IMG/VR virus record: IMGVR_UViG_3300029319_000066 | Span: 1-54,454 of that record | Reading direction: 5' to 3' (one strand) | From: a virus | DNA: 54,454 nt | Shown: piece by piece, positions 24,299 through 52,606 of the stretch | Position numbering within the stretch: position 1 is the stretch's first letter | Layout: every line of letters starts with the position of its first letter | Notes under the pieces: model-generated | What the model saw: only the letters and a program-made list of their open reading frames with translations | Told to the model about the DNA's origin: nothing | The model's database searches: none | Program-made: the position numbers and the translations under genes

Positions 24299-24482
24299 AG
24301 GTACAATAGGAGATTTAAAAACTGTACCAACGCACTACAAGATTACTCTTACTAACATAGATGAGGAGCAAGTAGATAAGATAGCTAGATTTATAAATGA
24401 TCTTAATATGAAAGAGTTAAGTAATCAAAAGAAACAAGCGTTTTATCAGCGATTTCGTACAAAGGCAAAAGATGATGCCTAA
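24237..24482 (+). CDS. Small protein upstream of integrase, possible excisionase position
   Basis: An 81-residue protein (MIQSRTTIDQYGPRL...), with AAAGGA 8 nt before ATG. It overlaps the gene before it and the integrase after it. The core (HYKITLTNIDEEQVDKIARFIND) is a strand followed by helices, and the C-terminus is basic (QKKQAFYQRFRTKAK). The position immediately before int is where phages often place a directionality factor, but no xis-type winged helix is obvious, so this is only a positional hint. Confidence 0.6.
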   Translation: MIQSRTTIDQYGPRLPEGQTEGTIGDLKTVPTHYKITLTNIDEEQVDKIARFINDLNMKELSNQKKQAFYQRFRTKAKDDA

Positions 24483-25602
24483 AGCTCCCTACGTAAGACC
24501 TCGTATGAGGGGCAGTGTAAGGGTCTATGACATTAGACCTACCACTGAAGTAAAGAGGGCATTCCCTGAGCTAGAGAGAGAGACTTACACATCTAGTTCA
24601 GAAGCCAATGCCAGAGGTTATGAGATCAAACGTAAGTTTGAACTTTGGAAGTGCGGTAATCACGAAGATGTTTACGTAGATGATCGATCAGTTGAAGCAC
24701 TGATTAATGATTACAAGAAATCTATGTCCTACGTAAACATTAAGAAGGAGACTACTAGACGTTCTTACAGTGATCACATAAGGCACGTACTTCCTGTTTA
24801 CATAACTAACACACCGTTTTGCAAAATGAATGTGTCAAACGTAGACTACAACTATGCTCAATCTCTTTGGTTACACATAGAAGATTCGGTCTCAACACAT
24901 AAAGCTAACCATACTTTTCGAGTACTAAAGCTAGTCTGGAATGAGGGTCTTCGCTCAGGGAAAGTAAAATTTAATCCTTTCTCTTTGGTCAAGATGCCAA
25001 AGCTACCAGATAGACAAGTTTTGTGGGAGATAGATCAACTCAAGGGTATGATTAAGTATTGCGATGATGAGGGTTATCCTTCGATGGGTACGATGCTTAC
25101 AATGTGCTATGAGTTCTGCCAACGGCCTGTAGATGTACGGACTATGAAGTGGTCCAACATAGACGGTGTTACTGGCGTAAGTAACTTCATACAGCAAAAG
25201 ACGGGTAAACATATGTCTATCAAGGTAACTAATGCAGTACAGAAGCGTATGTCTCTACATAAGAAGCGTAACATAGATGACTATATCTTTGCTTATGAAA
25301 ATACGGGCAAACCCTATACGCAAGACAGATGCAACAAGTTGTTTCGCAAGCTCGCGGATGGGTATGGACTGCCAAAAGTTCCTCTCCACGGTCAGCGTAA
25401 CCGAGATGGTAGCCAAAAGTATTCTTCTATATGGATGGCTGATCTACGTAGGACAGGAGCAACTCATGCCTCGCGCTCAGGTTGTACTGACAGGGAGTTA
25501 ATGGCTCTTACAGGGCATAAAAACCCCAATATGTTAGTTGTTTACGCAGTTGCTGGTGAGATCGAATCTACCAACGCAAACATGAAAAGAGGTTTGCTTT
25601 GA
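24472..25602 (+). CDS. int: Tyrosine site-specific integrase
   Basis: A 376-residue recombinase that would join phage and host DNA at a tRNA gene. The catalytic domain shows R218 (CQRPVDVRTMKW), a beta-hairpin lysine (QQKTGK, K243/K246), R326 (ADLRRTGAT), H349 (LTGHK) and the nucleophile Y358 (MLVVYAV), 9 residues after H349. The usual first His of the HxxR box appears to be Ala323, a tolerated variation in some family members. The N-terminal core-binding helices are at about 85-180. The attP lies 100 bp downstream. AAAGG is 6 nt before ATG. Confidence 0.93.
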   Translation: MMPKAPYVRPRMRGSVRVYDIRPTTEVKRAFPELERETYTSSSEANARGYEIKRKFELWKCGNHEDVYVDDRSVEALINDYKKSMSYVNIKKETTRRSYSDHIRHVLPVYITNTPFCKMNVSNVDYNYAQSLWLHIEDSVSTHKANHTFRVLKLVWNEGLRSGKVKFNPFSLVKMPKLPDRQVLWEIDQLKGMIKYCDDEGYPSMGTMLTMCYEFCQRPVDVRTMKWSNIDGVTGVSNFIQQKTGKHMSIKVTNAVQKRMSLHKKRNIDDYIFAYENTGKPYTQDRCNKLFRKLADGYGLPKVPLHGQRNRDGSQKYSSIWMADLRRTGATHASRSGCTDRELMALTGHKNPNMLVVYAVAGEIESTNANMKRGLL

Positions 25603-28449: not shown

Positions 28450-30600
28450 ATGAAGTGGTTAGTATTGGATTTAGAAACGACAGTAGAGCGTATCGATGGT
28501 CGTATAGATAATAGCCCTAAGAACCCAAATAATAAATGTGTTTCCGCACATTATGGTTGGCTATCTACGGAAACAGTAGACAAAGTTCATTTTGATATAT
28601 TTTTTCATAAAGAGTGTAGAGTTCCTGATGGAATATCTAGGCTTAAAAGCCATTTGGCTGAAGCAGATGGTTTGATTTGTCATAATGTTAAGTTTGATGC
28701 TGAGTGGTTGATGGAAATGGGCTTCGCGCTCCCACCAGTTGTCTACGATACTATGATTTGTGAGTATCTTTTAGCAAAAGGTCAACGTAGATTGTTGAGC
28801 TTAAAGGAAAGTGCAATCAGACGTAAAACTAAAAGCATTAAAAAATCAGACCTTGTTGATGAGATGTTTAAAGAAGGCACTGACTTTAGTGAAATGCCTC
28901 TCAACGTAGTTATTGAATATGCAGAAGCTGACGTAAAAGCCTGTGGAGAATTGTTTCTCGCGCAACAGGATATTCTAGAGCGTGAGCATAATATTAGTCT
29001 TAAAAAAGTAATCCCTTTTATGAATGAAATGCTTTTGTTTCTATGTGAGATAGAAATGAACGGCGTTAAGATTGATATGGATGCTTTAGAGATTGTTGAG
29101 AAAGAGTTTGAAGCTGAAAAGATTGAGCTTGAAAGACGTTTAACAGAGTTAGTTGAACAAGTAATGGGTGATACGCCTATTAACTTAAATAGTGGCGCAG
29201 ATATGACTAAGGTAGTTTATTCGCGTGAGGTTATTGACAGAGATGTTCACCAAAAGACATTCAACATAGGCACTAATGAAGCAGGTAAATCTCTTAGACC
29301 GCCATATATGAAATCAAATCAATTTGTAGACGCTGTAAGGGCTACGACTAAAGTAGTTCACAAGACAGTTGCTTCTCGTTGTCAATGCTGTGATGGCCTT
29401 GGGTCTATTCAGAAGTTTAAACAAATTACTAAAATTAAAAATGGTAAAAAGTATAGGGTTCAAGGTGGTCCTTATAAAAATAGAACCAAGTGCAAAACCT
29501 GTAATGGAAAGGGTGCTATTTACGTATCTAATGGTGTTGTAGCTGGATTAAGATTGTCTCCAAGCTCTCCTTACGATGCTAGTATCAATGGTTTTAAAAC
29601 AGACAAGGAAACCATTAAGCTTTTAATTCAACAAGCAGAGCGTAAAAACAACGAAGTAGCTAAAGAGTTCTTGACTAAGTTATCTCGCTTGAGCGCAATA
29701 TCTGTTTACCTAGATAGTTTTGTTGCTGGTATAAAGAGGGGTACTAGAGCAAGCGGATTTCTTCACGCAAGCTTTCATCAGTGTAAAGCTTCTACTGGCA
29801 GACTTTCTTCTGGCGGTGGTATGTCCTTAAACTTACAGAACCAACCAAAAAGAGGATTTCCTGTACGTAAGTGCTTTGTTAGCCGTTTTGAAAATGGTCT
29901 ACTTTTAGAGTCGGATTACAGTGGATTAGAATTTAGAACGGCTTGTGAGTTATCTAGAGATAGTCAAGGTCTTGCAGATATTATTGAAGGCAAAGACATA
30001 CACAGACAAACTGCAAGCATCTGTCTACGTAAACCACAGTCTGAAGTTAGTAAATCTGAGAGACAAAACCATAAATGGGCAAGCTTTCAACCTCTCTTTG
30101 GTGGTACTGGAGCTGGTCAGCCTTCACATATAAAAGCGTATTTTGATAGGTTTTATGAGATATACGAAGGTATATACGGTTGGCATCAGTCTTTAATGAA
30201 TGGAACACTCAAGAATGGAACTGTAGAAACACCTAGTGGAAGACAATATTACTGGCCTAATGTTGTCAGAACTAGGAATAATCGCGTAAGTTTTGCTACT
30301 CAAATACTAAATTATCCAGTACAAGGCTTTAGTGCAGATTTAGTTCAATTAGCTTGCATTAGGGCTTATCGTTTATTTAAACAAAAAAATATGCAATCAA
30401 AACTTATACTTACAGTACACGATAGTATTGTTGTTGATACTCATCCAGATGAAGTTGAGGAAGTAAAGGCAATACTTACGCAAGCAATGACAAAAGTAGG
30501 AGATGAAGCAAAAGAACGCTTTGGATACTCTCTTGTTGTACCTCTAGAAATTGAAATTAGTAGAGGAAAAAACTGGTTAGAGCAACAAGAATATGGTTGA
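28450..30600 (+). CDS. Family A DNA polymerase with exonuclease and DnaJ-type zinc finger
   Basis: A 716-residue replicative polymerase. The 3'-5' exonuclease has D7/E9 (LDLETT), CHNVKFDAEWL and YAEADV. The polymerase has motif A D489 (ESDYSGLEFR), motif B R538-x3-K542-x3-F546-x3-F550-G, and motif C H657-D658-S659 (usual HDE has Ser). F546 matches E. coli Pol I Phe762. Inserted between exonuclease and palm is a half DnaJ zinc finger: C311-x2-C314-DGLG and C348-x2-C351-NGKG. Such an insertion was reported in SAR116 phage HMO-2011. It starts 1 bp after the helicase stop. Confidence 0.93.
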   Translation: MKWLVLDLETTVERIDGRIDNSPKNPNNKCVSAHYGWLSTETVDKVHFDIFFHKECRVPDGISRLKSHLAEADGLICHNVKFDAEWLMEMGFALPPVVYDTMICEYLLAKGQRRLLSLKESAIRRKTKSIKKSDLVDEMFKEGTDFSEMPLNVVIEYAEADVKACGELFLAQQDILEREHNISLKKVIPFMNEMLLFLCEIEMNGVKIDMDALEIVEKEFEAEKIELERRLTELVEQVMGDTPINLNSGADMTKVVYSREVIDRDVHQKTFNIGTNEAGKSLRPPYMKSNQFVDAVRATTKVVHKTVASRCQCCDGLGSIQKFKQITKIKNGKKYRVQGGPYKNRTKCKTCNGKGAIYVSNGVVAGLRLSPSSPYDASINGFKTDKETIKLLIQQAERKNNEVAKEFLTKLSRLSAISVYLDSFVAGIKRGTRASGFLHASFHQCKASTGRLSSGGGMSLNLQNQPKRGFPVRKCFVSRFENGLLLESDYSGLEFRTACELSRDSQGLADIIEGKDIHRQTASICLRKPQSEVSKSERQNHKWASFQPLFGGTGAGQPSHIKAYFDRFYEIYEGIYGWHQSLMNGTLKNGTVETPSGRQYYWPNVVRTRNNRVSFATQILNYPVQGFSADLVQLACIRAYRLFKQKNMQSKLILTVHDSIVVDTHPDEVEEVKAILTQAMTKVGDEAKERFGYSLVVPLEIEISRGKNWLEQQEYG

Positions 30601-35691: not shown

Positions 35692-35792
35692 ACAAAATGT
35701 AGTAGAGTTACCGAAGAATTAGGTTGATTGGTCCACCTAATTCGTTGGTGGAGAGACCCTCGCTTTTATACCTTTAAGTGGGGGTTTCTTTT
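35679..35792 (+). ncRNA. Candidate small structured RNA with promoter and terminator
   Basis: A possible promoter (TTGACC-N18-TAGAGT, 35679-35708) precedes a segment that can fold in two exclusive ways: GAATTAGGT...ACCTAATTC (9 bp) or CCACC.AA-TTCG-TTGGTGG (UUCG loop). It ends at a good intrinsic terminator. It could be an independent sRNA or the regulatory 3' end of the reductase message. Confidence 0.4.
35756..35792 (+). terminator. Intrinsic terminator of the replication/reductase operon
   Basis: ACCCTCGCTT, 10-nt loop, AAGTGGGGGT: a 10-bp stem with two G-U pairs, followed by TTCTTTT. It prevents plus-strand transcription from running into the convergent virion operon, whose last stop codon it touches. 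Confidence 0.8.
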
Positions 35793-38700
35793 ATTGTAAA
35801 TTCAACTGTCTCATTTGTTCATCTACGGTAACAGTCGGGCTTGGTTCTGCTATAAATCCTTCACTGAATGCAGAAGAACTTGAGAGAGGGGCTACTGAGC
35901 CAGCATCTATAATAGCTTGTCCTGTTTTCTTGGCTGTACCTACGGTAACATCCTTAGCAACCTTTTTAGCTATTTGTCCTTTACTAAGACCTTTAAATTG
36001 AGATCCATAATTAATAAGAAATTCCTTGACGCTTTCTATAGCTCCCTTACGTATCTGTGGATTTTTATTAAGAGTAGCTAATAAAGTTCTTGGCTGAAGC
36101 ATTAGTACTCTAAGAGCTTCTGATTTTTTGGCGGTAGGTAATCCATCAACTAACTTTTTAAAAGCGGCGGAACCAATAGCTGCTGCTTGTAATTGTGATC
36201 CTTCTCCAACACCAAATTGTGCGCCGAAGTTAGCACCAAATATTCTAGCTGCGTTGGTAACTAAATCACCTTGACCTGTAACAGCGTTTGATATCTGTTT
36301 GTCGTTCATAGTACTTTTTTGAACACGTAATCCTTCGGAAATTACTGCGCCAAGTGCTTGTGTCTCTTCACTTGAAATTACACCTTGCTCTTGCATAATA
36401 TCTAAAATGCTTTTGTCTCCCTTACGCCCACTAAGAGGTCTTGTTAATTCATTTGTTAACGTAAAGAAGTCAGGATCATCGCCAACTTTTGCAGACTCAA
36501 ATAATTTGTCTATCGTAGCCATTCGTAGGTCGGCTAGAGCATTTGCATCTCCTAATGCTTCTGAAGCAAGCTTTGTGTAATCATCTACAGGATTTTTACC
36601 AGTAAGTACCTTACCAATTTCTTTTGGTAATTGTCCTGAAGTAGCAATTTCATTAAATTGATCGAATATTTTATCGGCTGTTCTTTGTGCATCTAAAAGA
36701 CCTACTAATTCAGCCCTAAAATTTGGGAATGCTTTTAGTACTTCTGCATTCTCAGTAGCAGACATAAATTGTTCTAACTTTTGTGGGTCAATCGTACCAT
36801 CAGTACCCCTTAATTTAGTAACTGATCCTCGTAGGAAATCTTCTTGGGCTTTTGTCATAGTTGGCCCAAGGTCTTGACGTATACCCTCATCACGAATTGC
36901 TACAGAAGTAGTTTCTCCACCTTCATTTAATGTAAAATCATCTGTAACCTCAGATTCTGGTGCATCTGGTCTTGGTCTGTTAGCTCCGTAGATAGTATAC
37001 TCTGGAACAGGGTCGGTAGGATCTAATAAAGTATCATCTCCAATACCTGTTACTTTAATTTCTGGAATAATATCGTCATCTGTTGGCATTATTTTTGATG
37101 GATCAACTTTTGTAGGATCATCTACATTATCTGCTTGCGTAGATGGTACTCTTGCACCGTCATCTGCTAAAGTTCTTGCATCAAGTTCTGCCTTTGCAGT
37201 GGCATTTTTTAAATCATCTAAATTTTTTATTTCTTGTAAAGTTTCACCTGCTTGGTCTGCAAATTCTGCACCTTCTCGCATTTCTGCCATATTTAATGCT
37301 CTAGATGTTTCAGAACCAGCCATTGCTTTATCTAAAGTTTCTTCTGCACGTATAGTGGTTCCACCAGTTTCACCTTTAGCAAGAACATCTTGATTGAAGT
37401 AACGGGTAAATCTAGCATTTAACTCTGCACTAAATCTACGAGCAGCTTTTATGTCCATACCACCCATATTATCGGGTATAGTATTTAACTCATCGATTGT
37501 AGCATTAGCTAATTCATCAAAAATACCTGCCTTAAAGTAATCTGGACTAGCACCTGAGCCTAAAGTTCTAGACTCTGCTAACATACGGGATCTAAATTTA
37601 CGTATTTCATCTACGCTAATAGTTTGATTAGGATCACGGGCTTTTGCGTAAATGTTTCTTATAACAGCATCTAATTGACCACCGCCTGCTAAAGTTTCGC
37701 CTTCTAATATTCTACTATTTATTAAGCTATCTATTTTAGACGCAAGTTGATCACCTTGGACTGTAAGTGAAGGATCAATCCTACTCCATAAATATGTTTC
37801 CATATTTCGGATATTGTTTTTAGCTTCAAACAAAGTCTGTTGAGCTATTTCTGAAGCCTTCATTGGACTTACATCTGGACCAAGTTCATTCACTCTAGCC
37901 GTTGCTTGGGCCTGTGCAGAATTAATACGTGTATCTAATAAATTCTGAAAATATCTTGCTCTTAAAGTATTAGCTGCGGAAGTATTACCTGCTCTGGCTA
38001 AATTCTCAGAAGCATTTAGTATTTGATTAAGAGCAATATTAAGTTCTTTTCCTACATCTCCACGAAAATCTGCGTAAGCAGAAGTCATTTCATTTTGAAT
38101 ACCCATAAGAACTGGATTTTCTGTAAGATTGCCAGAAGGTAAATTAATACCTAATTCAGCCATTTGCCCATCTGTAGCATTTAAAGCATTTTCTAAATCG
38201 CTAATAATCCTTTCAGCTTTGTGAGCATCAGCTTCTTCTATTAGTCGAGTATAAAGAGCATCATCACCAGCTTCCTGTGCAACTTTAGCCCTGTCTAACA
38301 GTAAATCTCTTTGGGTTTTAGCTGCTATAAGAATATCATTCACAGCCCCCTTTTGAGCCGCTTGTTTACTTATTGCCGACATAGCTGTTTCTAGTGATTT
38401 ACTTAATGCACTACTTACGCCAGTAGCTGTATCTCCAGCTTTAGATTTTGCAGATACTGTACCACCACCAAGAATAGAACCAACAAACTCTGCACCCATC
38501 ATGGCCCAAGGATTATCGCCTAAGCCAATTGTTTCTATAAAACCAACTGCGCCAGCAGCTGTACCAGTAGCGGCTGTTTCTATCTTTTTAAATTTACTAG
38601 GATCTTTAGCAACTTCCTTAATAAGAGGATTGCTTAATCCAATTCCCATTTTAGCAGATTTTAATAAAGCATAACCCGGTATAGCATTTTCTGTTAGTAC

Positions 38701-39333
38701 TCTGGCAATACTAAAATATGGTTTAAATTCATCTGGAATATTTTCTCTATCTAGATAAAGTTTTTCTCCTTCGTCAACAACACCTGTTTTTTCTGCAATA
38801 AGATTTGCTTTTTCTTTAAGATATTGACTACCCAATACTGGCTTAGGACTTGAAGCTATAAAATCTTTTGGATCAGTGCTTACATCACCGCCAAGTTTGT
38901 TAATACCATAACGTACTCCACCTTCTATTCCTTGTGATGCCATATTCACTAAGTCAACAGGCAATCCAAGAAGGTTCATACCAGCACTACCAATGCCTTT
39001 TGTAATTGCATCACCAGTACTATCTACGTTGGTATCTACGACTTGGCCTGATGTAATAAAATCTAACAAGGCAGTAGGACTAGTACCTTTTTGTATTTCT
39101 GGTGCTAGGTCAAAAGGTTGACCATCCATTTTCCAATTAGTACCGCCTTGTTGAACAATATCATTAAGAATGTTCTGGTCGGATTCACCAGAGCTTCTAC
39201 GTTGTTTAATATTTTGTAGGTCCAACTCCCCAGAGGTTTGTTGTTCCTCAAACGGGTCTACTACTTCTGCATCTTGCTCAAGGTCTAGACGATCTTGTTC
39301 ATCTTCAGCAAATGGATCTACAATATCAGTCAT
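35791..39333 (-). CDS. Very large internal virion protein (1180 aa), probably ejected
   Basis: It starts MTDIVDPFAEDEQDRLDLEQ; ATG overlaps the upstream stop (TAATG). Two acidic DPFxE motifs open the protein. Gly/Ala-rich hydrophobic stretches at about 110-145 and 255-300 (TAATGTAAGAVGFIETIGLG) could insert into the host membrane. The rest is a long alpha-helical region with Ala-rich coils, then an acidic Pro-rich segment around 700-800. Size, place at the end of the virion operon and membrane-active helices fit the podophage internal core proteins that form the ejection channel. No enzymatic domain is recognised. Confidence 0.65.
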   Translation of the reverse strand: MTDIVDPFAEDEQDRLDLEQDAEVVDPFEEQQTSGELDLQNIKQRRSSGESDQNILNDIVQQGGTNWKMDGQPFDLAPEIQKGTSPTALLDFITSGQVVDTNVDSTGDAITKGIGSAGMNLLGLPVDLVNMASQGIEGGVRYGINKLGGDVSTDPKDFIASSPKPVLGSQYLKEKANLIAEKTGVVDEGEKLYLDRENIPDEFKPYFSIARVLTENAIPGYALLKSAKMGIGLSNPLIKEVAKDPSKFKKIETAATGTAAGAVGFIETIGLGDNPWAMMGAEFVGSILGGGTVSAKSKAGDTATGVSSALSKSLETAMSAISKQAAQKGAVNDILIAAKTQRDLLLDRAKVAQEAGDDALYTRLIEEADAHKAERIISDLENALNATDGQMAELGINLPSGNLTENPVLMGIQNEMTSAYADFRGDVGKELNIALNQILNASENLARAGNTSAANTLRARYFQNLLDTRINSAQAQATARVNELGPDVSPMKASEIAQQTLFEAKNNIRNMETYLWSRIDPSLTVQGDQLASKIDSLINSRILEGETLAGGGQLDAVIRNIYAKARDPNQTISVDEIRKFRSRMLAESRTLGSGASPDYFKAGIFDELANATIDELNTIPDNMGGMDIKAARRFSAELNARFTRYFNQDVLAKGETGGTTIRAEETLDKAMAGSETSRALNMAEMREGAEFADQAGETLQEIKNLDDLKNATAKAELDARTLADDGARVPSTQADNVDDPTKVDPSKIMPTDDDIIPEIKVTGIGDDTLLDPTDPVPEYTIYGANRPRPDAPESEVTDDFTLNEGGETTSVAIRDEGIRQDLGPTMTKAQEDFLRGSVTKLRGTDGTIDPQKLEQFMSATENAEVLKAFPNFRAELVGLLDAQRTADKIFDQFNEIATSGQLPKEIGKVLTGKNPVDDYTKLASEALGDANALADLRMATIDKLFESAKVGDDPDFFTLTNELTRPLSGRKGDKSILDIMQEQGVISSEETQALGAVISEGLRVQKSTMNDKQISNAVTGQGDLVTNAARIFGANFGAQFGVGEGSQLQAAAIGSAAFKKLVDGLPTAKKSEALRVLMLQPRTLLATLNKNPQIRKGAIESVKEFLINYGSQFKGLSKGQIAKKVAKDVTVGTAKKTGQAIIDAGSVAPLSSSSAFSEGFIAEPSPTVTVDEQMRQLNLQ

Positions 39334-41936
39334 TAATTTTGCCCACTGTATTTATTATTGTAAAATTCAGTTAATTCAGCGTCAGTTTTACCTTGGTTAG
39401 CTGGTATTGCTTTAGCTGCTTGTATAAATTCTTGAAGAGTAGGTACGTTAGTATTTTGAGTATTATTATTTGGTTTAAATATACTTCCTGTAACTTGATC
39501 CGATTTTGCACCTTCGTCAAAGCTTTGTAATACAGCTTTGTAAATGTTAGAAAGTGGTCGTAAAGCATTTAGTGCTACGTTAGCCTTACTTTGGGCTGTT
39601 GTATTTACACTACGGTCTTTTGCCGTTGCTTCCTGATTTATTATAGCTTGATCAACAAGGTTTTTGATGTCTTCTAAATTTCTACGGGCCTCTGGTTTAC
39701 TTCCAAAAAATCTGCCAGTTTCTGGAATAAGTGCGCCAATCTGAGCTTTTAGTGCTACGCTATCTCTAAGACCCGGAAAAGCTGTTACTATTTGTAAGGT
39801 AGTAACTGTTTTAAGAGCATTTAAACTACTTCTTGCCTCTGCACTGTCTTTCATTGCAGTGCCACCAAAAACACCAGTAACTGTATTTAATACTTTACCA
39901 GCCCAACCTTCAGGACCAAACGCTGCTGAAATATCTTTTAAGTCATTAATGTCGCCTTCAAAACCAATATTTCTTAACGCTTGTATTGCTTGGTCTTGTG
40001 CGGATTGTATAGATTGAGATTCTTCTTCAGTAAGTGTTTCATTTACTATTCTTTGAGAAGCATCAGCATCACTTTCTTGATTGCCAATATTTATTGGAGT
40101 GCCTGAAGCTATATCAACAATCATTGGTCTTCCAAAACCATCAGATGTTATTTTTCTAACACCATTTTTAATTTCTGCTGCTGTCTTTCTGTCTACGTTA
40201 AGATCAGCCATAATCTGGGCAATGTCATCCAACTTGATTGGACTCCAACCTTCTTGCTCCAACTGGGCTTGTTGATCGGCACTTAATACCCGTATTTCTT
40301 GCCCATCTTTATAATATGTACGGGCTGTATATTTTTCTGTAGGTGCTGGCTTTATAGCAGAAAATCCATCTGCAATAGCTACATCCATTTGATCTTGTGA
40401 AAATACTTCTATTTCACGACCATCTTCTGCATATAAAGTTCGTTTAGCAAATTTTTCTGTAGTAGCTGGTTTAATAGCAGACCAACCGTCTTGCTTGTAC
40501 TGGTCTAATTCTTCAATTGAGAATACTTTTACTTCTGCACCGTCTTTATACAGTATTCTGCTATCAAACTTGTCTGTCGGAGCAGCTTTTATAGCAGAAA
40601 ATCCATTAGCTATAGCTGTATCCATTTCTGCTTGAGAAGTAACAACTTGTTGTGCGCCATCTTTGTAAAGAGTTCTTTGAACAAATGGCGTTACCTTAGC
40701 TGGCTTAACTGGAGACCAACCGTCTGATACCAACAGAAATTCTTCATCCTCAGAGAATACCTGTATTTCTGCACCGTCTTTGTACAATGTTCTTTGAACA
40801 TATTCTTTAGTTGGAGCAGCTTTTATAGCGGAAAAACCATTAGCAATGGCTGTATCCATTTCTTCTTGGGTAGTTACGACTTGCTCTGCACCGTCTTTGT
40901 ACAATGTTCTTTGAACAAACGGCACTACCTTAGCTGGTTTTTCTTCACTCCAACCGTCTGCTTTATAAGTAGATAAATCATTTTCGCTAAAGACTTTGAC
41001 TTCTGCACCATCTTTGTAGAGTGTTCTTTCTTTAAAGTCTTTTTCTACAGCTGGTTCTATTGCAGACCAACCAATATTAGTTGCGTCATCTAATTCTTTT
41101 TGAGAAAATACTTCTAGTTTTTGTCCATCTTTATATAATGTTCTTTGTTTAAATGGCTCTGTTTCCTTGGGCTTAACTTCGCTCCAACCTTCGGATTTGT
41201 ATTGTGTTAAATCAGCATTACTGTAGACCTGAACACTAGCACCGTCTTTATAAAGAGTTCTTGTTTTAAAATCTGTATCACCTGCGCCTTTAATTAAAGA
41301 AAATCCTTGTGATATATAATTATTTTCTTCAGCTTGAGTACGGGCAGTAACTTCACTACCATCGGCCTTATATAACTTTGTAGGATTATATTTATCAGGA
41401 TCAGTAAGCGAAGCCTTTCTTCTTATAAGTAAAGCCTTTCTTTCTGCGGTTATATTGGGATTACTTAATTCAAAATTTACTTCATCAAGTGCCATAGAAA
41501 GAGGATCTTTTTGTGATTTACCAAATAAAATTTCACCCATTTGTTGATCAGTACTACCGGGTGTGTACGTAGATGTAGCATCCATTATAGTATTTAAATC
41601 ATTGTATCCTGTAATACCGCCATCAACGATAACACTAAGCACTTTTTGTTTATTTGCTTCAGTTTTATCTATTCCTTTAGTGGTAAGATAAAGATTAGCT
41701 AATCTGTCCTGTTTTTTCTGTTTTTTATCTTCAGCATCTTGCTTTGATTTTATAGCTCTTGCATTGGCCCTTGCTTCTCGTCTTTTTTCAATTTCTTCTT
41801 GTCGTTTAAATTCATCAGCTTTCTTTATTCCGTAAGTAAGCTCATCAAAAAAACCCGCAAGCGGATCTACTTTTTTTCTATAAGCACCAGCGTCTAGATT
41901 AGCTCGTACTCTGTCAGCCTCACTACGAAAGCTCAT
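39333..41936 (-). CDS. Internal virion protein with ten tandem 39-residue YKDG/GW repeats
   Basis: ATG at 41936 (MSFRSEADRVRANLD) was chosen because AGGAG lies 7 nt upstream; a TTG ten codons earlier has none. It has 867 residues: a basic helical start (EKRREARANARAIKSKQDAE), then ten 39-residue units from about residue 180 to 573 (consensus FxxRTLYKDGAEVxVFSxxx..GWSxIKPAxT), then a mostly helical C-terminal part. Units alternate between two types, giving a 78-residue higher-order repeat. The repeats look like short beta-hairpin beads; function unknown, probably structural in the virion. Confidence 0.7.
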   Translation of the reverse strand: MSFRSEADRVRANLDAGAYRKKVDPLAGFFDELTYGIKKADEFKRQEEIEKRREARANARAIKSKQDAEDKKQKKQDRLANLYLTTKGIDKTEANKQKVLSVIVDGGITGYNDLNTIMDATSTYTPGSTDQQMGEILFGKSQKDPLSMALDEVNFELSNPNITAERKALLIRRKASLTDPDKYNPTKLYKADGSEVTARTQAEENNYISQGFSLIKGAGDTDFKTRTLYKDGASVQVYSNADLTQYKSEGWSEVKPKETEPFKQRTLYKDGQKLEVFSQKELDDATNIGWSAIEPAVEKDFKERTLYKDGAEVKVFSENDLSTYKADGWSEEKPAKVVPFVQRTLYKDGAEQVVTTQEEMDTAIANGFSAIKAAPTKEYVQRTLYKDGAEIQVFSEDEEFLLVSDGWSPVKPAKVTPFVQRTLYKDGAQQVVTSQAEMDTAIANGFSAIKAAPTDKFDSRILYKDGAEVKVFSIEELDQYKQDGWSAIKPATTEKFAKRTLYAEDGREIEVFSQDQMDVAIADGFSAIKPAPTEKYTARTYYKDGQEIRVLSADQQAQLEQEGWSPIKLDDIAQIMADLNVDRKTAAEIKNGVRKITSDGFGRPMIVDIASGTPINIGNQESDADASQRIVNETLTEEESQSIQSAQDQAIQALRNIGFEGDINDLKDISAAFGPEGWAGKVLNTVTGVFGGTAMKDSAEARSSLNALKTVTTLQIVTAFPGLRDSVALKAQIGALIPETGRFFGSKPEARRNLEDIKNLVDQAIINQEATAKDRSVNTTAQSKANVALNALRPLSNIYKAVLQSFDEGAKSDQVTGSIFKPNNNTQNTNVPTLQEFIQAAKAIPANQGKTDAELTEFYNNKYSGQN
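40215..41400 (-). repeat. Ten tandem 117-bp repeats coding 39 residues each
   Basis: Each unit codes LYKDG near its start and G(W/F)S near its end. The first unit (LYKADG...QGFSLIK) and last unit (YYKDG...GWSPIKL) are the most diverged. Units 5 and 7 are nearly identical (both with EMDTAIANGFSAIK), and units 4 and 6 share the PAKV ending, so a two-unit block has been copied recently. Confidence 0.9.
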
Positions 41937-42474
41937 TTTCAAGCTCCTCTTCTTCTGTATTTCCAAGCATTGCGGATTGTTCTTCTTCAGAAGCTACTCC
42001 ACCATCTTCTGGCATAGCCATCAGACCGCCTACAGGGGCTTCTGAGGGGGCTTCTTTCATTTGCATAGGCTCTACCTCATCTTCTTGCTCTACGATGCCC
42101 AGAGAAGCTTTTAAGAGGGTAGGGGTAATAACTACTCTATCTTTATCCTCTATTCCCATCTCATACTTAATGCCTACGTCTTTAGCTATTATCTCAATGT
42201 AACGGGCAAGAGGGCCAGCTATTAGAATTGCTAGGTCTATGCCTACCTTTCCTTTACTAATGGCTTGCATAAGTATTGTAGAAACTACGGTAGTAATGTG
42301 AGCATCGATGCCTAGCATTGCGAACACTAGTTCTTTTTGTTCTGGCTCATCAATTTTGTCTATTAAGTAAGAAACAGCTTCATCGTAATCGACTATATCA
42401 GGTGGCCTATGCCAAGCGTAGTTACGAGTATCTGAAGTGTAATTGCTACCTGGAATTGGAGTACTAAGTCTCAT
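41923..42474 (-). CDS. Virion-operon protein, unknown function
   Basis: A 183-residue protein (MRLSTPIPGSNYTSDTRNYA...). A WHRPPDIVDYDEAVSYLIDK opening is followed by two hydrophobic helices (ITTVVSTILMQAISKGKVGI, IDLAILIAGPLARYIEII) and a long acidic, Met/Glu-rich disordered tail. A similar opening (PIPGSNYTSDTRNYAWHRPP) recurs in marine cyanophage and pelagiphage structural regions, as far as I recall. It overlaps both neighbours. Possibly a minor virion or assembly protein. Confidence 0.6.
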   Translation of the reverse strand: MRLSTPIPGSNYTSDTRNYAWHRPPDIVDYDEAVSYLIDKIDEPEQKELVFAMLGIDAHITTVVSTILMQAISKGKVGIDLAILIAGPLARYIEIIAKDVGIKYEMGIEDKDRVVITPTLLKASLGIVEQEDEVEPMQMKEAPSEAPVGGLMAMPEDGGVASEEEQSAMLGNTEEEELENELS

Positions 42475-42658
42475 CTTTTAACTCCTCTTCTTTAGCTTTT
42501 TTACTGTCAGTAGGTTCTTCCAAAAGATCTTCTTCCATTTGGTCAAAAAAGTCGGGTGTATATAGTAATCCGTTCTCTTTTAGCTCAGATGTTTTCATAG
42601 CCATCTTACCTGCTAAAAAGCTTTTAATTGATCGTTTAACCGCAACATTAAAGTCCAT
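42464..42658 (-). CDS. Small acidic protein of the virion operon
   Basis: A 64-residue protein: MDFNVAVKRSIKSFLAGKMA, then a very acidic second half (FFDQMEEDLLEEP...KEEELKDE). It overlaps genes on both sides by 11 bp. The basic N-terminal helix and acidic tail could make it an assembly chaperone for the neighbouring virion proteins. No family is recognised. Confidence 0.6.
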   Translation of the reverse strand: MDFNVAVKRSIKSFLAGKMAMKTSELKENGLLYTPDFFDQMEEDLLEEPTDSKKAKEEELKDET

Positions 42659-44888
42659 TTTGTATCATCCCATAATTTACTCTGAGGTAACCATCTTCAC
42701 CCGTGACTACAGCTTCTGGATGAGATTTTTGAATTACTTGCGCTAGTACTCCAAAGCTAGGATACTTATCTGCGCCTATCTTTTTGCCTTTTTCATTCCA
42801 ATCCCAAGTGTAGAAGTCTATGCCTTTAAGGGTATCGTAGTACTCAATATTTTCTTTTAGGCGTATGTCAGAAAAAGGTAATATTTTTGCCAACCAAGCA
42901 GAACCACTAGTAGACCCCAAGAAAGCACCACCCAACTGAAGTAGACCACTTAAAAATCCACCACCAGAAGACTGACCGCTTTGAGCTTGCATCTGATTAA
43001 CTAGAAGTCTTAGTTCTCTTTCTTGTTCGTTGTCTGTGGTTTTCCAAATGTAATCTAATAAGTTATCGGCGTAATCCCATAACTGGTTTTGTTGTTCTTG
43101 AGTAAGGTCTAAAGCAGCTTTTACGTCAGCCGTGTGAGCATCAACTTCGGCTCTAAAGTTTTCTGTCTCAACTGTTTGTCGCCACTTCGCATTCGCAAGA
43201 TCAATTTGATATTGCATCTCTGCCATAAACTTATCGCGGTCATTTTTTAAATCGGCGTTAAATTGAGCAGCATCATTTATTTCCCCAGCGTTAAATTTTG
43301 CTAGAGCGTTCATTTCAGAACTATTATGACGATCAATTGCTACTTGTAATTCATCATAGAATTTAGCCATATCATTAGCAGTTTCTGCGCCAAATCTCCG
43401 AGCAGCATTTTCTGCTTTTGTATTTTCAAATAAAGCTTGTACTAAGGCTTGCTTATTTACCATCTCAGCCTGTTGCTCATTGTTGAGATTGGTAAGATCC
43501 ATTTCTAAGAACGCTTTAGCATTTTGTATGGCTGCTTGTGAACGTACATCCAAGTTTGCCATTTCAATCTTAGAAAGAATGTTAGCCTTATTAATAATAG
43601 CTTCTTGCTTATTATTAAGATTTGTTGTGGTCAGTGTTTGAAAGAATGTGGCTTCTTTTTCTGCAACGCCTAAAGTAGCTTCCATAATAGCATTACTCAT
43701 AGCGGCTGTAGCTGCGCTTCCAGAAATACCACTAAAAGCTATAGACTTAGAAACTTCTCTGGCTTGTGCTTGCGCCCACGGCGGTATAATTGGATTACCG
43801 TTAGCATCTTTAAACTCAGCAGCTATTGTCTTCATTTGCCAAAGTATAGAAGTTTTAGCGTCTACAAAGTCCTTACCTTCAGCCTTTAATTTATCTGCTA
43901 ATAATTTACCTGCTGTTGTTGTAGTATCGATAATTTTAGACATATCGACACTGGCCCAATCATTAAGGGCTAATCCAAGTTCATTTTTTGTACCGTCTTC
44001 ATTTACACCAGTAGCTGCTCCCGTCATATCTATGGTGTATTCTTCTGCGTCTACTTGAGCTTCATCACTAACCGTTCCAGTAACGGCATTCATCATTTCT
44101 GCGTCAGTAATCTTAGCTTGTGCTGCTTCGTATGTAGTACCTTCTTTCGCGGTTATATCATCAACGATAGTAGCGTCATCTACGGTAGTAGCTTCAAAGC
44201 CATAATTTTCCCCAATATCATAGTTAGGATCATCCGCATCTAGAGTAGTACCTTCAGCATCATCATCCATTGTTGGAAGAAGGTCGGATACTTTTAAACC
44301 CCTATCTTCCAAGAATTTCATTGGGTCAGCTAGAATAGCTTGTGCATCAGCTTCGTTTTGAACAAGGCCAGCTTCTTCAGCCATCTTTTTAATGTTTTCG
44401 GCTGTTGTTGTAATTTGTTCTGTCGCTGTTTGGGTTTCTGTAGAGGTACTTGTTCCATCACCAGTATTATTACTTGTGCTACTGCCATTATCTCCACCAT
44501 CGTTATTATTATTAGTAGTAGTGTTGTTATTAGATGTTGAGGTACTAGAAGAAGGCATATTTAAAGTAGCACCAGCCTGAATAACATTTGCATCAGTAAT
44601 GTTTGGATTAGCTTCCATCAAAGCAGAAACGGTTGTATTATTGGCTTGTGCAATTTCAGAAAGAGTATCCCCAGATTGAATAGTATAATTATCATTGCTA
44701 GAGTCATTCATATTGCCAGAAATTGTGTTGCCAGTAGAAGTTTGACCGCCAGCAGATATGGGCTGCTGAGTTGCGTCATCAACTAATTGACCACCTACGT
44801 AGGAAGCTCCATCGTTAGGTGTAAATACGTTGGCAACGCTTTCGCTAAAACTATTGCCACCACCAAATGTATCTGACCATATGCCCAT
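42648..44888 (-). CDS. LysM + S74 intramolecular-chaperone virion protein
   Basis: A 746-residue protein. Residues 68-111 are a LysM domain (YTIQSGDTLSEIAQANNTTV, VIQAGATLNMP) that binds peptidoglycan; a Thr/Asn/Ser-rich linker and a long helical region (about 350-610, with many Ala/Asn/Gln coils) follow. The C-terminal 74 residues are a short peptidase S74-type domain: S673-D-I-R-L-K678 and YPSFGVLAQVIQKSHPEAV. S74 domains trimerise a partner and cut themselves off at the Ser. LysM with S74 on a helical body suggests a self-cleaving trimeric wall-contacting virion protein. Confidence 0.75.
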   Translation of the reverse strand: MGIWSDTFGGGNSFSESVANVFTPNDGASYVGGQLVDDATQQPISAGGQTSTGNTISGNMNDSSNDNYTIQSGDTLSEIAQANNTTVSALMEANPNITDANVIQAGATLNMPSSSTSTSNNNTTTNNNNDGGDNGSSTSNNTGDGTSTSTETQTATEQITTTAENIKKMAEEAGLVQNEADAQAILADPMKFLEDRGLKVSDLLPTMDDDAEGTTLDADDPNYDIGENYGFEATTVDDATIVDDITAKEGTTYEAAQAKITDAEMMNAVTGTVSDEAQVDAEEYTIDMTGAATGVNEDGTKNELGLALNDWASVDMSKIIDTTTTAGKLLADKLKAEGKDFVDAKTSILWQMKTIAAEFKDANGNPIIPPWAQAQAREVSKSIAFSGISGSAATAAMSNAIMEATLGVAEKEATFFQTLTTTNLNNKQEAIINKANILSKIEMANLDVRSQAAIQNAKAFLEMDLTNLNNEQQAEMVNKQALVQALFENTKAENAARRFGAETANDMAKFYDELQVAIDRHNSSEMNALAKFNAGEINDAAQFNADLKNDRDKFMAEMQYQIDLANAKWRQTVETENFRAEVDAHTADVKAALDLTQEQQNQLWDYADNLLDYIWKTTDNEQERELRLLVNQMQAQSGQSSGGGFLSGLLQLGGAFLGSTSGSAWLAKILPFSDIRLKENIEYYDTLKGIDFYTWDWNEKGKKIGADKYPSFGVLAQVIQKSHPEAVVTGEDGYLRVNYGMIQNGL

Positions 44889-50092: not shown

Positions 50093-52606
50093 CTAATCAT
50101 CTGCCACAAGACCATTGCTTGCGCTAATAGATACGCCAACGGCATTTGTTGTATTTGCTGTTCTGGAAAGTCCTTGAAAAGTTGATCTACCTGCTGAAGT
50201 TCCTACATGAAGTTCTTTGGTAATATCGTCATGTGCCAAGCCTGTTACCGTATCACTGCTACCATATAAAGTGGCTTTTGCATTTGTATTAAAAAGACGT
50301 TTTTCGTCTTCATACATTTTTTTAATTTGGTCTGGGGATGGGGCTGTGGCTGAAATGCGCCAAAGAGCTAAATATCCTCCAAAATGTGTTCCGTAATTGT
50401 GGCTTTGACCTAATAGTAATGGTGGTTTTTCTGACGTATCTGCCAAACTTGTATTTCCTTGGTTAGCAGTACCAATCAACTTTCCATCTACATACAGTTC
50501 CATCATACCACTACGGCGAATTGCAAAAACTTGTTGCCAATTAGATCCTGTGTGGGTGCTAGTTGTAGATATAGTAGTTCTACCAGTGGATTGAAAACCT
50601 TGAGTGTAAATAGCAAAAGTTAAAGTTGAATTAGAACCTGTGCTTATTAAAAATCCTGACCCTGCGCTATTGCTATTGCGAAGCCTATTAATAATAGGAT
50701 CACCAGAACTAGCAGATTTAAACCAACCTGATATACAAAAGTCACCAGTGAAATCTAAATGTGAATTATAAGGCTGAGATAAATAGTTGCCGTTAGAAGA
50801 GAACCCACTATAAGCCACCAAATCCGCACCAGTAGCTACAGCCGATTTGGTCACAGTTCCATATATTCGTAGACCATTTTGATATACTGAACGATCTTTT
50901 TCACTTACACTTAAACTTACATCATCATAATCTGTAGATGTTGACCCTTCAGACCCCATCATTAAATAAGTTGTTGTAGTTGTTGCTGTAAAACTAAAAG
51001 CTAAATAACCATTTGCTGTAGATCTTGAAGTTCCATATGTTCCCCAATCACTTCCTGTAGGAATTGCAGTACTGGCTGACAAAGTTGCGTAACTTCCATT
51101 ATTAGAAACGGTAGCTTCAAATACATAAGAAGTTCCGACTACCGTTGTAACTGCTAAATAAGCATTAGAATACCCACCATTATCTGCTACACGCAAAGCA
51201 TTACTTACTTGCGAAAGAGTAGCATTTGATGCAACCCAATTTCCTGTACCGCTTGTAAAAGTACTGTCGTCACCACTTAGAAGATTTGTATATGAAATAT
51301 CCGTAGTATCCGTATCAGATAGTGTACTAAGTTTATTATTTCCTATTTGCCATCCTGTATTGTAATCAGAAGCTATATAAGCATTCATTCCATTTGTATT
51401 ATCTTTAATGTCACTTTCACTAAGTTCATGTATAGTTAGACCATCTTGCCCGTCAAAATCATTAACAGTCTGAGCTGTAGTTGAAGTAACTATAGTTCTA
51501 GGCTCAATCGTAACTAATTTATCAGCATTGCCTAAAGGACGTGGAAAATTAAAAGCTGCCGTTCCATTGTCATTATCGGCCCAATAGTAATTTGCGTCTG
51601 AAGTGTTACTTAAATAAGATGAACTTTCTCCTACGCTAATATCTTTGTAAATACCATAATACAAAGGAGCCGTAACAACTAAGTTGCGCCCTAGCCACGC
51701 ACTTTTGTGCAAAGCATCCGCAGTAGTAGCTTTAGACACAGTAACACCATCATCTTTAATAATGGTAGCACCCCCACCAGTAGCAATCGCTATGGTTGGT
51801 ACAGGCAACCCCGTAGCAACATCAATAGGTGCATTGGGAAGAACGGTCATGGCTACATCGTTGACATATTGGTTTAAAATAGTATTAGCTACAACCCCAT
51901 CAAATCCCTTGCCTGAATTACGTTCAGCGATACTACCGTTATATCTACCCTTGTTTGCGTAACTGCTACTTGTAGTGTGCCTAAACGCACTGTCAGATAA
52001 GAAGTCAATTTCCGCTATACCTGCATCATTTGGCGCAAGACCTACCATTAACTTGCCATTAAGCATAGCTATGTTCATTCCTGTTCCGTGTGAACGTAAG
52101 ATTGAGTTAGCACTGTTATCAAAAGACATCCAAAGTGGCAGATCAGGGTCATCACCATCATATATGTTAGTCTCTGTCGCACTGCTATCAGCCACAATAA
52201 CAGCCACCGATGGAAACTCTTTACGAGAACCACGGGTGCTAGTGCTTAGGGTTTCATTATACCAAGAAGTATTCTGTGTTCTGTGTCTCCAAGCACCGCC
52301 ATCGCTATCTTTTGAAGTGTCGTAAACGAATACGTCTACGGCTGTGTCGCTAATGGTTGCGGATATGGCTGATACGTTTATTTCGCTTCCAGTTAACTTA
52401 CCTGTTATATCCCCTGTTACATTACCAGTTACGTTGCCAGTTACGTTACCAGTTAGAGGACCAGAGAAAGCAGCTCCTGTAGCCGTTCCTGTAAATGTTG
52501 GACTAGCGAGAGGTGCTGCTCCGACTACCTCAGCAACAGATATTTGACCATCTGCTAATTCAGCGTTGTCCGATATTAAGTCAGCTAATGTACGTGCCTT
52601 GCTCAT
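50093..52606 (-). CDS. Tail fibre protein with GNVT repeats and LamG-like domain
   Basis: An 837-residue protein. The start MSKARTLADLISDNAELADG is a common fibre attachment module. Residues 50-75 contain 12-bp-repeat encoded GNVT units. The central part is beta-rich, and residues about 600-790 form a concanavalin/LamG-like sandwich (LDFTGDFCISGWFKSASSGD, WQQVFAIRRSGMMELYVDGK, ALWRISATAPSPDQIKKMYE). It would bind a sugar on the host surface. Its GNVT repeats are shared with the 1302-residue fibre gene nearby. Confidence 0.78.
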   Translation of the reverse strand: MSKARTLADLISDNAELADGQISVAEVVGAAPLASPTFTGTATGAAFSGPLTGNVTGNVTGNVTGDITGKLTGSEINVSAISATISDTAVDVFVYDTSKDSDGGAWRHRTQNTSWYNETLSTSTRGSRKEFPSVAVIVADSSATETNIYDGDDPDLPLWMSFDNSANSILRSHGTGMNIAMLNGKLMVGLAPNDAGIAEIDFLSDSAFRHTTSSSYANKGRYNGSIAERNSGKGFDGVVANTILNQYVNDVAMTVLPNAPIDVATGLPVPTIAIATGGGATIIKDDGVTVSKATTADALHKSAWLGRNLVVTAPLYYGIYKDISVGESSSYLSNTSDANYYWADNDNGTAAFNFPRPLGNADKLVTIEPRTIVTSTTAQTVNDFDGQDGLTIHELSESDIKDNTNGMNAYIASDYNTGWQIGNNKLSTLSDTDTTDISYTNLLSGDDSTFTSGTGNWVASNATLSQVSNALRVADNGGYSNAYLAVTTVVGTSYVFEATVSNNGSYATLSASTAIPTGSDWGTYGTSRSTANGYLAFSFTATTTTTYLMMGSEGSTSTDYDDVSLSVSEKDRSVYQNGLRIYGTVTKSAVATGADLVAYSGFSSNGNYLSQPYNSHLDFTGDFCISGWFKSASSGDPIINRLRNSNSAGSGFLISTGSNSTLTFAIYTQGFQSTGRTTISTTSTHTGSNWQQVFAIRRSGMMELYVDGKLIGTANQGNTSLADTSEKPPLLLGQSHNYGTHFGGYLALWRISATAPSPDQIKKMYEDEKRLFNTNAKATLYGSSDTVTGLAHDDITKELHVGTSAGRSTFQGLSRTANTTNAVGVSISASNGLVADD
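52380..52470 (-). repeat. 12-bp tandem repeats coding GNVT
   Basis: Successive units such as GTTGCCAGTTAC and GTTACCAGTTAC (plus-strand orientation). The same type occurs at about 1600-1690 in the large fibre gene, giving two short direct homologies in the same orientation across the circle. Confidence 0.8.

Follow-up and report, generated by a model that had tools for sequence, protein, structure and literature searches.

An ordinary-looking tandem repeat in a putative ejection protein proves to mark a cassette that phages of an abundant marine group have exchanged. The repeat lies in the window analysed here (the whole stretch of DNA, a virus record of 54,454 bases), where ten units form an array at a single site of a large protein. 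Phages that are 95–100% identical over several kb carry arrays that are 44–51% identical, and a number of arrays are similar to ones from distant phages. From this we conclude that the array is a cassette that undergoes exchange and has its own genealogy. Mosaic proteins of the ejection type are of a known kind, and what is new is an array of beads that lies outside the family libraries searched.

The phage and the array-bearing gene

The window shows synteny with Roseobacter phage CRP-738, a member of the HMO-2011-type phages, a dominant marine group (PMC9038755). It shares with the isolates of this type the order of the replication, structural and packaging modules, and on this gene order it is identified as an HMO-2011-type marine podovirus. 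PHROG matches in the window cover the terminase, a portal-like protein, tail proteins, a DNA polymerase (28450–30600), a helicase, a ribonucleotide reductase, a MazG-like protein and an integrase. In this group the DNA polymerase characteristically contains part of a DnaJ domain as an insertion, with two CXXCXGXG motifs.

The features of the array locus are collected in Table 1. The ATG listed there, and probably not the TTG at 41966 given by the ORF finder, is the likely start of the array-bearing gene, since it is preceded by the GAGGAG sequence and since the proteins of CRP-738 and most relatives have this same first residue, with a common MSF(K/R/S)(S/T)EA. The ten units follow one another in frame on the minus strand from nt 41378 to 40203, corresponding to aa 197–588 of ORF 39333–41966. 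Each was recovered by an iterated profile with an E-value between 4e-14 and 5e-20, which excludes a chance origin, whereas Tandem Repeats Finder (TRF) reported a 234-bp period only, covering part of the array. No Pfam family covers the unit and nothing scored above the cut-off; matches to VWF (PF23244), Nop5_N, Astro_VPg and the like lay below the curated cut-offs, extended over short stretches and were rejected. A scan for the array across bacterial and archaeal genomes returned no relative.

Table 1 Features of the array locus in the window
Feature	Coordinates	Strand	Length (aa)	Description
Downstream neighbour	35791..39333	-	1180	Last gene of the structural block; likeness to T7 gp16 by position only
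Array-bearing gene	39333..41936	-	867	ATG at 41936, Shine-Dalgarno-like GAGGAG upstream
C-terminal helical domain	39333..40202	-		aa 589-877; common to relatives with or without the array
Unit 10	40203..40319	-	39	GWS; conserved terminal unit continuing into the C-terminal domain
Unit 9	40320..40439	-	40	GFS
Unit 8	40440..40556	-	39	GWS
Unit 7	40557..40673	-	39	GFS
Unit 6	40674..40790	-	39	GWS
Unit 5	40791..40907	-	39	GFS
Unit 4	40908..41024	-	39	GWS
Unit 3	41025..41141	-	39	GWS; alternation broken here
Unit 2	41142..41258	-	39	GWS
Unit 1	41259..41378	-	40	KADG, GFS; cap-like first unit
Conserved N-terminal part	41379..41936	-		Basic segment, one ~60-residue helix (aa 35-96), then linker domain
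Upstream neighbour	41923..42474	-	183	Conserved in HMO-2011-type and Rhizobium/Sinorhizobium phages; synteny anchor
746-aa protein	42648..44888	-	746	Matches: LysM, S74 chaperone, 'DNA ejection protein'

Organisation of the array

An initial annotation of this DNA had described ten 39-residue repeats at 40215–41400 with alternating GWS and GFS types and a two-unit higher-order period. Ten tandem units are indeed found at this location, but the bounds were off by about 12–22 bases, and while eight of the ten units are 39 residues long, units 1 and 9 have 40. The alternation is strict from unit 4 to unit 10 but not before, unit 1 being of the GFS type and units 2 and 3 both of the GWS type. Units of the same parity are more alike than units of different parity in the window (p=0.008 relative to chance unit order) and in the array of its sister L073 (p=0.028), but the effect is not significant in the arrays of CRP-738, L022, L074 and L027; as a general rule, the two-unit period was thus rejected.

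Recent copying of a 78-residue block, for which near-identity of units 5 and 7 had been adduced, is contradicted by the measured values. These two units share 79% of their amino acids and 77% of their nucleotides, and the blocks formed by units 4–5 and 6–7 are 73% identical in nucleotide sequence, and among their 78 codons 21 differ synonymously and 21 non-synonymously, so that a copy of the block would not be recent. When compared with L073, units 5 and 7 display four parallel changes, all within 24 bases, while 16 sites track orthology, a pattern more in line with conversion over a short tract than with a new duplication. Collapse of the array during assembly, an objection anticipated by the initial annotation, is unlikely for the window because the longest exact repeat within the array measures 33 bp and a second IMG/VR contig, possibly of the same source, is identical to the window over 16.5 kb.

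Predicted fold

An AlphaFold2 model of three units, built from an in-register alignment of 19 three-unit stretches, reached a pLDDT of 91 and a pTM of 0.44 with linkers of lower confidence. Each unit is accordingly predicted to be a compact beta-beta-alpha bead on a flexible linker, with the mutual arrangement of the beads left undefined; the early idea of a beaded protein is thereby upheld at the level of prediction. The model of the full protein has low overall confidence (pLDDT 61) and features a long N-terminal helix, a helical C-terminus, and a hairpin followed by a nine-residue helix in nine of the ten units, unit 9 not being resolved. Foldseek matched no solved structure in the PDB, and searches of the PDB with the array, by sequence and by fold, were empty at E 0.001.

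Contents of the array site in related phages

The loci of relatives were fetched in two ways, via the 183-aa gene and via the array. Complete genes hold ten units in the window, nine in CRP-738, eight in L022, L074 and L075, five in L021, L025, L027, L031 and their copies, one in L039 and none in others. Rather than being fixed across relatives, the repeat number therefore varies (5–10). The adjustable length envisaged at the outset is real in so far as relatives have 5, 8, 9 or 10 units, but the number has changed mainly by the exchange of whole arrays with other lineages and not by recent local duplication. The syntenic orthologue in CRP-738, gp21 (UAW59265.1, hypothetical protein), is 47% identical to the window's protein and has the same N- and C-terminal parts and the same repeat type; it differs in its nine units as opposed to ten, and the array is just 53% identical. 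L073, whose 1180-aa protein is 92% identical to that of the window, has kept units 2–10 one to one.

Other contents occupy the same site elsewhere. The syntenic gene of ten isolates, comprising HMO-2011-type and Rhizobium/Sinorhizobium phages, encodes 365–935 aa without units, and helical modules take the place of the array in other relatives. In the array gene of L037 and L041 the site carries a different, longer helical module that seemingly repeats within itself. An endolysin-like domain begins at aa 151–175 in six loci, and the four of these that were scanned matched phrog_26675 (E 5e-8 to 1e-12); L047 and L049 had been considered endolysin-like by virtue of a GKYQF motif, but the profile did not confirm them and they are not claimed. 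The replacement can be abrupt: L023, which has units, and L032, which has an unrelated middle part, are 96.4% identical until about codon 64.

Exchange of whole arrays

The identity of the arrays is decoupled from that of their surroundings. L025 and L027 have identical gp22 proteins (the 183-aa protein, 100%) and arrays with 51% identity; the corresponding values are 98% and 44% for L031 and L027, and 98% and 47% for L021 and L022, which have five and eight units, respectively. L025 and L021, on the other hand, have gp22 proteins that are 73% and arrays that are 72% identical. In the pairs that were profiled, identity drops to 52–68% over the array, with flanks mostly at 95–100% over several kb on each side. 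Nor is the array the only part to be exchanged, since the C-terminal domain (gene nt 1800–2400) has also been swapped between the near-identical phages L025 and L027 and between L025 and L031.

This pattern is akin to the metaviromic islands, which likewise represent local hypervariability in otherwise near-identical marine phage genomes (PMC3909814), and in which internal virion proteins are among the hypervariable genes and have remained unexplained (PMC3909814). The island study relied on read recruitment (PMC3909814), whereas the present analysis resolves which segment is exchanged and what can take its place. In a phage group that is dominant in the sea (PMC9038755), the variable segment is thus narrowed to a single site, for which the alternative contents can be defined.

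Such variation could be borne by a passive spacer or rod whose length is set by the number of units, although we consider this unlikely. Beads on linkers, as predicted, a unit number between 5 and 10 and the unrelated helical modules that fill the site in other relatives would all suit a spacer. However, the arrays of L025, L027 and L031 have changed strongly in sequence (44–58% identity) at a constant five units each, which a pure spacer does not require, and the endolysin-like domain at the same site is no spacer. It is in our judgement similarly improbable that the variation is neutral, that is, that repeats recombine easily and the arrays drift and are exchanged without selection. Repeats do supply homology for exchange, and both the conversion tract between units 5 and 7 and the 99%-identical 234-bp repeats in L097, a locus from an unrelated phage group, are in keeping with such a process, but the swap of non-homologous contents exemplified by L023 and L032 goes beyond what repeat homology can offer. 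The exchange of arrays within nearly unchanged DNA suggests that what the bead string encounters is a part of the host that changes.

Relationship to repeats of phage nucleases

Two leads pointed from the array to phage nucleases: a weak tblastn match (E 0.02) to the GIY-YIG nuclease of Chryseobacterium phage MA9V-2 (MA9V2_138), and the top match of the full-length model in BFVD, an HNHc-domain protein (E 1.7e-5). They led to a profile comparison with hhalign, in which 77 array units aligned with 16 nuclease repeats over 24 columns with a probability of 91, a score of 26.4 and a P of 1e-6, the latter being the value of a single comparison and not of a database search, with a nuclease set picked through the tblastn lead. 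The maximum score in 150 column shuffles was 13.9, and the reversed profile scored 5.4. The motif of the nuclease repeats, a DG turn, a hydrophobic strand, a helix and GW, is present in the array units, and the C-terminal repeats of MA9V2_138 resemble the array in the pattern kDG...V...E(L/V)...L..GW, in their tandem copies and in their similar length. They differ in being basic, in ending with GW..G and in being attached to a nuclease, whereas the array units are acidic, end with G(W/F)S..KP and belong to a structural-block protein. On this profile similarity, array units and nuclease repeats are likely to have a small fold in common by descent. The sugar-binding modules that had been suggested for the units find no support, and the resemblance detected is the one to phage nuclease repeats: searches for a carbohydrate- or cell-wall-binding repeat family gave no Pfam match above the cut-off and none in the PDB at the threshold given above, and a match to the carbohydrate-binding module (CBM) of a PDB xylanase (E 1.2) was rejected as chance.

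Common descent does not make a common function likely. If the array, derived from the tandem repeats of GIY-YIG nucleases, bound DNA, it might hold the genome end in the virion or guide the DNA during ejection, and both the hhalign and the BFVD results speak for this reading. The basic surface expected for DNA binding is, however, absent from the array (net charge −19, pI 4.7), and the YKDG units have a mean net charge of −2.2 compared to +1.6 for the nuclease repeats. The acidity of the one and the basicity of the other disfavour DNA binding as a shared property; moreover, DNA binding by the nuclease repeats themselves is an assumption, and a DNA target that is the same for all phages would leave the exchange of arrays unexplained. 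We therefore regard a DNA-binding array as very unlikely.

A putative role in DNA ejection

By position and neighbour matches only, the array-bearing gene is a member of a putative ejection/DNA-transfer gene cluster. In the window a 'DNA ejection protein' match lies nearby (Table 1), and in L097 (contig G001) the units reside in a gene between matches to phrog_4287 'DNA ejection protein' (E 5.5e-7) and phrog_770 'DNA transfer protein' (E 3.6e-10). The agreement between the two contexts makes a putative ejection-type role for the array protein well supported. No match in PHROG, Pfam or the PDB labels the array protein as an ejection protein, and for a likeness to T7 gp15 there was no PHROG match and no useful fold match, the full-length model being poor. 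The rod-forming virion protein of the initial annotation survives as a likely virion protein, but gene context places it among internal, ejection-type proteins and not in an external rod. The array of L097 (11670–12370) consists of the same units and has a 234-bp period at 99% identity; it contains a 10-N scaffold gap, which makes the unit count unreliable and a collapse in assembly likely there. A tblastn search for cultured relatives of the L097 array gene found none.

Podovirus ejection proteins exit the capsid, build a channel across the periplasm and are mosaic, with peptidoglycan hydrolase domains that move between gp16 and gp15 homologues (PMC8954989). The proteins of T7 (gp14, gp15, gp16) and P22 (gp7, gp16, gp20) are comparable to the array protein in cluster position and as large helical proteins, and also in their mosaic exchange and in a peptidoglycan hydrolase domain that is found in different members of the set (PMC8954989). 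They differ in that they have no detectable sequence match to the array protein, and no tandem beta-beta-alpha array is seen for podovirus ejection proteins in the passages of PMC8954989 that were consulted.

We propose that the array gene encodes an internal virion protein of the type that podoviruses push into the periplasm to form the DNA channel. Its conserved basic helical N-terminus and conserved helical C-terminal domain flank one exchangeable site, which holds ten predicted beta-beta-alpha beads on flexible linkers here and fewer beads, helical modules or an endolysin-like domain in relatives. At infection the string of beads would become accessible in the periplasm and would contact a host target that is not the same in all hosts or that resident prophages modify. 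The phages would keep pace through recombination that brings in whole arrays from other lineages and through a slower process, conversion among the units. We give an even chance to this reading, in which the array is a part of an ejection protein that faces the periplasm, can be exchanged and contacts a host target that varies. A position facing the periplasm is the simplest reading of a site that holds an endolysin-like domain in relatives. Hypervariability is also typical of external receptor-binding proteins, which counts against an ejection protein.

An external adhesin with the units as sugar- or protein-binding modules on the virion surface is nonetheless highly improbable, as its likeness to the hypervariable host-recognition genes of marine metaviromic islands (PMC3909814) is countered by the location of the gene, which lies towards the end of the structural block and has ejection-type genes as neighbours in two phage groups, by tail-fibre matches that sit elsewhere in the window, away from the array gene, by Pfam and PDB searches without a carbohydrate-binding match and by the island study itself, which lists internal virion proteins too. 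For the periplasmic segment of an ejection protein, a possible selective reason to exchange arrays is offered by P22, where mutants that escape the exclusion protein SieA have changes in the ejection proteins gp16 and gp20 (PMC10883804).

A broader and more tentative extension, which we hold to be doubtful, is that one site of the ejection protein acquires its contents by recombination, be it a whole tandem array, helical modules or a domain resembling a peptidoglycan hydrolase, and thereby sets which hosts, or which prophage-protected cells, the DNA can enter. Phage host range is usually ascribed to tail fibres; if the extension is true, there would be a second, internal determinant of host range, made of a repeat that phage nucleases have as well. 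With CRP-738 as a cultured isolate that bears the array, and with the exchanged site resolved, the notion of ejection proteins as a second layer of host range becomes directly testable.

Further features of the genome

The integrase match is of the tyrosine type and lies at 24472–25602 on the plus strand; the phage may be temperate, and a temperate lifestyle has been reported for some HMO-2011-type subgroups. The LysM domain (aa 68–112) of the 746-aa protein is not apparent in CRP-738 gp24, and this neighbour of the array-bearing gene may vary in its modules too. Both end regions of the window contain similar 12/24-bp tandem repeats of the GTTACATTACCA type, at 1588–1686 and 52389–52464, which lie inside the large ORFs 1–2709 and 50093–52606, respectively.
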